Assembly: GCF_036711975.1 (NCBI RefSeq)
Contig: NC_091976.1
Coordinates: 11,036,001-11,100,000, forward strand
Length of the DNA stretch: 64,000 nucleotides
Origin: Onthophagus taurus
Lineage: Eukaryota; Arthropoda; Insecta; Coleoptera; Scarabaeidae
Direction of reading: 5' to 3'
Each line of letters begins with the position of its first letter. Within the stretch, counting starts at the first letter, position 1. The notes below the pieces were generated by a model that was given only the letters and a program-made list of their open reading frames with translations, was not told the origin of the DNA and did not search any database. The position numbers were made by a program, and so were the translations under genes. Positions 9,970 to 11,300 of this stretch are shown one piece after another.

Positions 9970-10350
9970 CTAATAGGTCCTTGTATTACTTAGAAACTGC
10001 AGACACAACTGCCCGCAATTTTGATCTATTTCTCTTTGATATCGACAGTAATTATACTTTATTCTACCACCCCTACCGTCTGACAGCAAATATTGTTCGA
10101 TTTCTGATGGCGGTCTTAAATCACCGTAACTGTCGAAATAGTATATGTCCTTGTCGTCTTTTTTATATGCGACCCAATGCGTTCCTCGTCCTTTCAAGTT
10201 GTCCAAGTTAACGATACCTCTTTCCTTCTTTTTAATCTTACTCGGGAGATTGTCTCTCATAAATATACCCCGGAAATGTGGAATTTTTAGTACTTTCGCA
10301 AACTTTTCCAACTCGACGTTAGTTAACGCACGACGAGGTATTCGAACTAG
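9970..10350 (-). CDS. Adenain-like cysteine protease, start supplied by -1 frameshift
   Basis: The frame shows the adenain triad pattern: GTHWVAY (His), YYFDSYGD (Asp) and QNCGQLCLQF (catalytic Cys). This protease matures capsid proteins in adenoviruses and Polintons. The conserved N-terminal region (RIPRRALTN, then a KFAKVLKIP stretch) lies upstream of any in-frame ATG. The same region is conserved in element C (RLPNRPLTN and KYAKTLKIP), so it is coding. The frame joins the PLA2-core frame exactly one base back at the A AAA AAC heptamer 10356-10350. An internal Met (in the RGIFMRD stretch) is conserved and might give a shorter form. Confidence 0.75.
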   Translation of the reverse strand, partial: LVRIPRRALTNVELEKFAKVLKIPHFRGIFMRDNLPSKIKKKERGIVNLDNLKGRGTHWVAYKKDDKDIYYFDSYGDLRPPSEIEQYLLSDGRGGRIKYNYCRYQREIDQNCGQLCLQFLSNTRTY

Positions 10351-11300
10351 TTTTTTGAACTAGTGGTTACAACATCGCAACCTTTTTTATAGGGTTTATT
10401 GAAGTAACCTGTGCCGGCAACATTATTCCCCTTTCCTTCAATAAACAAACCGCAACCTTTCTTATATGGTTTTATATAAAATCCGCTACCTACGACCTTT
10501 GCTTCCATAGCCTTGTTATGTCTTCGTTCTTCATCTAATTGCTCTCTAGCTGTTTTGGCGTTGTTTATAGTTCTTGCAATAGCGGCAGCACCACCGCCGA
10601 TACTACCTAGGGCACCTAAAGCTGCAAACAGGGGAATTAAAGGTAAAAAACCTCCGGTTTTCGGAATTCGAATAATTCGACCTCTAGGTCCGGAAATTCT
10701 TTTTCTTATCTTTTTCAAAGCTCCGTACGCCGCTTTAACGTTTGTCAACAAATTCTTAGTACCTGATCTCGATATTGCGTTGCGAGCGAACCGAAGTGCA
10801 TCTACAAAAGATATAGCTCCACCACGCTTCACACGCATTCGAACTTTTTTTAAAGGTCGTCGACCCGTACGATTTCTTTTTCTACCTACGCCCATACTGA
10901 CCGCTACTTTTGCTTTCATTAAGGCGGCAACTGCGGACGATGCCACTTTTTCTCCAAGAGTAGACTCCTTATTTCGTATTCGTTCTTTCGCTGCTTTATA
11001 TAATGCTCTATCTGCGTCGTGTCTAAATTTTAAATCTGAACTGACCGTGTATGCTATGTCGTGTTTCTTACACGCTTCGTCTAATGGATTCACGCCTCGA
11101 TCTCCTCTCGATAATCTCTTTTCCAACTTGGTACCCGGTCCACGAAAATTATATCCTGGCAAATGAAGTTCTATCGGAAGTTTATCTATCAACTTGTTAA
11201 AAAATCCGTGACCAATTCGTTTGCCTGTCAAACGATAACTGTTACGATTAGGTTCTAACAAATTCATTTTATAATTACACTCCTTCTTCCTTTTCTTCAC
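10347..11300 (-). CDS. PLA2-domain core protein (parvovirus VP1-type PLA2 plus pX/pVI-like tail)
   Basis: 317 residues from ATG 11300; a second Met is at 11267. The N-terminal third is a parvovirus-like phospholipase A2: calcium loop YNFRGPGT at about 50-57 and catalytic pair in ACKKHDIAY (His80, Asp81). The middle is very basic (GRKRNRTGRRPLKKVRMRVKR). Next comes a hydrophobic, Gly/Ala-rich stretch (about 208-235) and then the charged pattern RHNKAMEAK. The end repeats G-x-x-K-P-Y-K-K-G-C twice. PLA2 helps particles leave endosomes in parvoviruses; the basic and hydrophobic tail resembles adenovirus-type core or lytic proteins. In element C the same gene is split at an A9 run. Confidence 0.8.
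   Translation of the reverse strand: MKKRKKECNYKMNLLEPNRNSYRLTGKRIGHGFFNKLIDKLPIELHLPGYNFRGPGTKLEKRLSRGDRGVNPLDEACKKHDIAYTVSSDLKFRHDADRALYKAAKERIRNKESTLGEKVASSAVAALMKAKVAVSMGVGRKRNRTGRRPLKKVRMRVKRGGAISFVDALRFARNAISRSGTKNLLTNVKAAYGALKKIRKRISGPRGRIIRIPKTGGFLPLIPLFAALGALGSIGGGAAAIARTINNAKTAREQLDEERRHNKAMEAKVVGSGFYIKPYKKGCGLFIEGKGNNVAGTGYFNKPYKKGCDVVTTSSKN
10350..10356 (-). promoter_or_regulatory. Candidate -1 ribosomal frameshift site A AAA AAC (element A)
   Basis: On the minus strand the PLA2-core codons TCA AAA AAC are followed at once by its TAG stop (10349-10347). The heptamer A AAA AAC is in the zero frame, and slipping back one base enters the protease frame. The stretch ACTAG..CTAGT around it can form a short 5-bp stem. 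No strong downstream pseudoknot is obvious by eye. The same heptamer in the same place occurs in element C. Confidence 0.7.

Follow-up and report, generated by a model that had tools for sequence, protein, structure and literature searches.

A widespread candidate −1 frameshift signal between the PLA2-like core and adenain-type protease of insect Polintons

In a 64,000-nucleotide stretch of the Onthophagus taurus genome (NC_091976.1, positions 11,036,001 to 11,100,000; hereafter the window, starting at C11:11036001 of the 290.8-Mb host genome), Polintons, which are double-stranded DNA (dsDNA) elements, carry a PLA2-like core gene followed by an adenain-type protease in the −1 frame, and very probably join the two products by programmed ribosomal frameshifting into a fusion resembling retroviral gag-pro. 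The basis for this proposal is the arrangement of reading frames and slippery heptamers, the lack of a nearby AUG, protein-level constraint upstream of the first AUG, conservation across diverged families and the existence of natural in-frame fusions. In the mechanism proposed, most ribosomes on the PLA2-core mRNA would terminate soon after AAA AAC (usually within 0–2 codons) and release the core protein, while a minority would slip one base back on A AAA AAC (U UUU UUA in families H and J) and read on in the protease frame. The product of the slip would be a core-protease fusion, so that the maturation protease would arrive attached to a virion protein and in a constant low proportion to it, as happens with gag-pro frameshifting in retroviruses. 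We infer slippage itself, its rate and the entry of the fusion into the particle from the sequences.

The junction of element A, read on the minus strand, is ACT AGT TCA AAA AAC TAG TTC GAA, where the core stop immediately follows the zero-frame heptamer (Table 1). The protease open reading frame (ORF) runs from stop to stop at 10359-9970 and is exactly −1 relative to the core, a layout repeated in element C. Its conserved N-terminal part contains no ATG; the structural place of the first AUG was predicted from a model of the related protein P0127. The residues immediately past the slip point align between the two elements (RIPRRALTN in A, RLPNRPLTN in C). The −1 relation, the in-frame heptamer, the lack of an ATG in the N-terminal part and the similarity to element C had been described in an earlier note made from the window alone and were borne out here, and the conservation extended beyond element C. 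Further support came from 12 family representatives in the host genome, from 115 homologous cores, from a two-frame reading of four contig pairs and from fusions that occur in frame in nature. For the PLA2-like core, a match to Pfam family PF08398 was obtained with the O. taurus relative P0122.

Within the host genome, 150 of 266 candidates from a protease search were scored, making the copy number a lower bound. From the match lists 98 short loci were chosen by hand, many of them near-identical and not forming a random sample, and each was assigned to one of 12 representatives (A, C1, C2, D, E, F, G, H, I, J, K and M). Within the region open in both frames, 11 of the 12 have a heptamer in register with the core: as AAAAAAC in A, C1, C2, D, E, F, G, I and K, and as TTTTTTA in the close families H and J. 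Under the strict criterion that the −1 frame be open as far as the FRG motif, 84 of the 98 loci retained it; in six of the 14 failures (L033, L056, L059, L060, L091 and L098) the heptamer is still there, but the −1 frame stays open for a shorter distance. The number of codons separating heptamer from core stop is 0 in A, G and K, 1 in C, D, E and F, 5 in I and 13–16 in H and J. As a background rate, the 2732 core codons that lie outside the tails contain AAAAAAC or TTTTTTA in frame 6 times. The region open in both frames offers just 2 in-frame positions in A and 4–6 in C, D, F and G, and each of these five families has the heptamer there. The region is wider in K (14 positions), E (16), H (19), J (21) and I (41), and in these five the heptamer by itself is weaker evidence. 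The TTTTTTA site of H and J is weaker: it has 19–21 open positions, and its Phe-Leu sits in a core motif whose conservation seems to have a reason of its own. The Asn codon at the junction is AAC in 8/8 A-type families (A, C, D, E, F, G, I and K), whereas AAC makes up 37 of the 123 Asn codons in the rest of the core sequences. The codon preceding AAA varies (TCA, CAA, GCA, AGA) and ends in A in every case.

How the protease frame is entered was considered in the light of its start codons. There is no AUG within the first 30 codons past the heptamer in families A, C, D, E, F and G, and the −1 ORF of family K, known from one locus, lacks any Met. These families already make it unlikely that ribosomes finishing the core restart at a nearby AUG; such termination-reinitiation would suit family M (locus L051), where core stop and protease AUG overlap as CAATGA with the −1 relation retained, and the contig pair P0165/P0043, which allows an RTGA overlap beside its Lys-Asn (KN) ending, but as a general account we regard it as barely credible. 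A separate or spliced mRNA could instead supply the start codon from its leader, the heptamer then being incidental. The elements are nuclear and splicing is possible in principle, and NCBI names P0122 as isoform X1, such that other isoforms may exist. However, no conserved acceptor AG was seen near the junction by eye, no systematic splice-site scan having been made; in family G no AG lies between the heptamer and the conserved LTD, and an AG found a short way upstream does not occur in L039 or L096. No spliced core-protease isoform of family A appeared among the 120 listed of 298 matches to the natural in-frame ORF of locus L055, and splicing would leave unexplained why AAAAAAC is retained while the preceding codon changes. 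We therefore consider this explanation very unlikely. The A-run itself might cause transcriptional slippage, yielding a mixture of mRNAs in different frames, as could be imagined for ant relatives with a longer Lys run at the junction, in which core and protease apparently occur in all three frame relations. Such slippage usually needs runs longer than 6–7 A, whereas the runs here are just 6 A (A, G, I and K) or 7 A (C, D, E and F), and the C that directly follows the run in all eight A-type families suits a ribosomal heptamer, so that we assign transcriptional slippage, too, a very low probability. The simplest account is ribosomal frameshifting: no acceptor is visibly conserved for splicing, most families offer no AUG at which to reinitiate, and runs of 6–7 A make slippage during transcription less likely.

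The earlier note had suggested looking for protein-level constraint upstream of the first Met, and this was found: in the stretch between slip point and FRG, the proportion of non-synonymous differences (pN) was below that of synonymous differences (pS) in 12 of the 13 pairs compared. Synonymous divergence (dS) among A, C2 and G over the same stretch exceeds 1.4 or is saturated, and the exact heptamer is therefore not merely unmutated ancestry. Among C, D, E and F, synonymous divergence is minimal directly after the slip (pS 0.29 over codons 1–15, compared with 0.39–0.82 in other windows; 6 pairs), which may hint at constraint at the RNA level. Downstream of the heptamer, strong structure was predicted for just two families, I (z −5.4) and G (z −3.5); the corresponding hairpins in L045 (family I) and L040 (family G) start approximately 8–10 nucleotides past the heptamer. 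Upstream windows (−40..0) also gave better folding than shuffled sequences, with z −5.1 in K and −2.4 in A, an observation to which we attach no meaning. A search of Rfam gave no match in window positions 9900-10700.

In other insects, the L055 query identified, among the matches listed, 5 proteins with both domains and 115 unfused cores. A KN ending lies 0–2 residues before the stop in 97 of these 115 cores, compared with an expectation of about 2%, a rough yardstick derived from the internal KN frequency (129 in 31345 dipeptides), the tails being richer in Lys than the rest. In the same set every residue preceding KN can be encoded by a codon ending in A: F, Y, C, H, N, D, M and W are absent from that place (0 of 97 terminal versus 35 of 129 internal KN), which is what a required A ahead of AAA would predict. 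Because the sequences are related, we attach no formal probability to these counts. Where a host is named in the KN set, it is a beetle (Onthophagus, Popillia, Anoplophora, Aquatica, Photinus, Molorchus or Pyrocoelia), except for a lone record labelled Enterobacter (P0238), which is probably contamination; most of the set comes from unnamed contigs. We also matched cores with proteases by picking proteins from equal-sized contigs by eye, their pairing being presumptive, and tried 11 such pairs, two of which share P0054. Joint back-translation gave a consistent overlap for 5 of the 11 and none at the called start for the other 6; four of the five consistent pairs require A AAA AAY, and one of those A AAA AAC. 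Four of the six failing pairs were retried with the start placed on the core stop, whereupon three fitted and one proved impossible. The ‘MKLP’ starts of metagenome proteases were considered as AUG starts and rejected: the pair P0209/P0022 fits only TTG, and called starts were therefore not taken as AUG. Scans of viral contigs with protease and core profiles, and one scan of prokaryote-genome contigs, yielded no confirmed relative; junction DNA therefore comes solely from the host genome, and other hosts were judged from proteins.

Several observations weigh against frameshifting as the explanation. In three families the first Met is closer to the heptamer, at 11 codons in I, 19 in H and 26 in J, and the pair D-E does not show pN below pS. 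No conserved or common fold was found in the C/D/E/F alignment; family F scored −3.0 in one window and +0.7 in another, A −1.3, and the remaining families showed no strong structure. Of the 115 listed cores, 18 lack the KN ending; the consistent pair P0207/P0033 has no heptamer, and the retried pair P0125/P0030, with its called start placed on the core stop, fits only AAT and not AAC. The families and listed proteins are related, and the tests are accordingly not independent. Lastly, family M, represented by the single locus L051 (G000:C11:12461985-12463697), has no heptamer and its protease has its own AUG. This is the kind of homologue that the earlier note had named as counter-evidence; it exists, alongside 11 of 12 representatives with the heptamer, and because of it the predicted frameshift signal is widespread but not universal.

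Other natural arrangements occur at the same junction. Five bases have been deleted after the heptamer in L055, which puts core and protease in frame across the junction, the core of this locus being interrupted further upstream. In L090 the heptamer is lost, with 13 bases gone between the CTAGTTC direct repeats that flank it. In-frame PLA2-core-protease proteins were found as P0127 (Lucilia), P0138 (Temnothorax), P0152 and P0241; the first two come from annotated genomes and may be gene models, the last two from short contigs. The ant protein P0138 has 1485 homologues, of which 120 were listed; among these, the protease motif lies in the core frame in 29 (33 by a looser test), while 45 fall in the −1 class, 22 in the +1 class and 20 remain unclassed around the junction Lys run. 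The classes were assigned from the tails of the proteins rather than from DNA, and they may partly reflect homopolymer errors. The mostly ant proteins P0242-P0360 have a long Lys (A) run at the core/protease junction, and among close relatives the core apparently continues in all three frames relative to the protease, a pattern apparently due to homopolymer slippage or assembly indels. Taken together, the junction alternatives suggest that the core-protease link is what is kept. It seems to us fairly likely that an entire lineage of insect dsDNA Polintons uses gag-pro-like −1 frameshifting to produce its maturation protease fused to the PLA2-core protein and that selection keeps the link by at least four routes at one junction, namely AAAAAAC slippage, UUUUUUA slippage, an AUGA stop-start overlap and in-frame fusion, slippage on a poly-A run in ants being a possible fifth.

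The window holds further Polinton genes besides the junction features of Table 1. The element C core (window 40374-41232) is split into two overlapping frames near 40783-40799, and its sister copies L010 and L015 each have a single ORF of 286–288 codons. At least one copy of a GxGLYLKPYKKGxGLYL-like motif is present in the core tails of most sampled insects (e.g. window 10347-10500). A double jelly-roll major capsid protein is encoded at 7723-8790 on the minus strand (PF21738, E 2.2e-100), and the adenain-type protease expected of Polintons and adintoviruses (Eupolintoviridae) is present as well. A retrovirus-like integrase with a chromodomain lies at 37072-38019 on the minus strand and is not tied to element A itself (rve, E 9.3e-12; its Chromo match, E 1e-4, is under the curated cut-off). 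The large ORF at 50857-54906, tested as a protein-primed family B DNA polymerase (PolB), gave Pfam matches only to zinc-finger and endonuclease VII domains (E 0.01).

Table 1 Features of the core/protease junctions of elements A and C (window positions)
Feature	Position	Strand	Remarks
PLA2-like core protein ORF, element A	10347..11267	−	306 aa, ATG 11267-11265 to TAG; ORF and translation
Slippery heptamer A AAA AAC, core frame, element A	10350..10356	−	Sequence reading
Core stop TAG, immediately 3′ of element A heptamer	10347..10349	−	
Adenain-type protease frame (−1), slip point to stop, element A	9970..10356	−	
First AUG of element A protease frame	10258..10260	−	30 codons past heptamer, within conserved FRGIFM stretch
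Element C core, C-terminal part	40783..41232	+	Copy broken upstream; ends AAA AAC TTT TAA
Element C slippery heptamer A AAA AAC, core frame	41220..41226	+	Context CAA AAA AAC TTT TAA; layout as in element A
Element C protease frame (−1) from slip point	41220..41609	+	

The earlier note knew of no described case in Polintons, a statement that has to be softened. Within the literature on Polinton, Maverick and adintovirus frameshifting, a scope that did not take in the founding adintovirus paper, we found one relevant statement, in section 16 of a 2024 preprint (PMC11071296), where −1 frameshifting is considered possible in some adintovirus Penton ORFs and a ‘similar relationship’ is raised for potential Hexon-Adenain fusions (‘Hexain’), hypothetical there and derived from KnotInFrame. 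That case concerns the same virus group and the same type of signal, and considers an adenain fusion; it differs in that the partner is Penton or Hexon, PLA2-core not being named in that section, and in that the section presents no comparative test. Passages of PMC8363768, PMC8097293, PMC10120064 and PMC12567637 mention no core-protease frameshift.

A conserved translational device setting the protease:core ratio would be most easily understood if particles are assembled, and so bears on whether Polintons make virions. The frameshift reading predicts a fusion peptide detectable by mass spectrometry. If it is correct, a dsDNA virus lineage and retroviruses have converged on one way of dosing and delivering a protease. 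Gene callers, for their part, can miss or mis-start the junction protease.

In retroviral gag-pro −1 frameshifting of the mouse mammary tumour virus (MMTV) and human T-cell leukaemia virus (HTLV) type, A AAA AAC stands at the 3′ end of the structural gene, a stop follows soon after and the protease lies in the −1 frame, giving a low-ratio fusion. The Polinton junction shares the heptamer, the nearby stop and the −1 protease, and by its sequence would likewise yield a structural-protease fusion. It differs in belonging to a dsDNA element, in having an adenain-type cysteine protease rather than an aspartic one and a PLA2-like core as partner, and in that no conserved fold was found in C/D/E/F. 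The adenovirus protease uses an 11-residue cofactor derived from pVI. In that system (structure 1nln) the adenain fold is the same and the protease is likewise tied to a virion core protein, but adenovirus makes protease and pVI separately, whereas here protease and core would be fused by frameshift or in frame. The insect in-frame proteins P0127, P0138, P0152 and P0241 have the same two domains in the same order, although as one continuous protein and thus without regulation by frameshifting.
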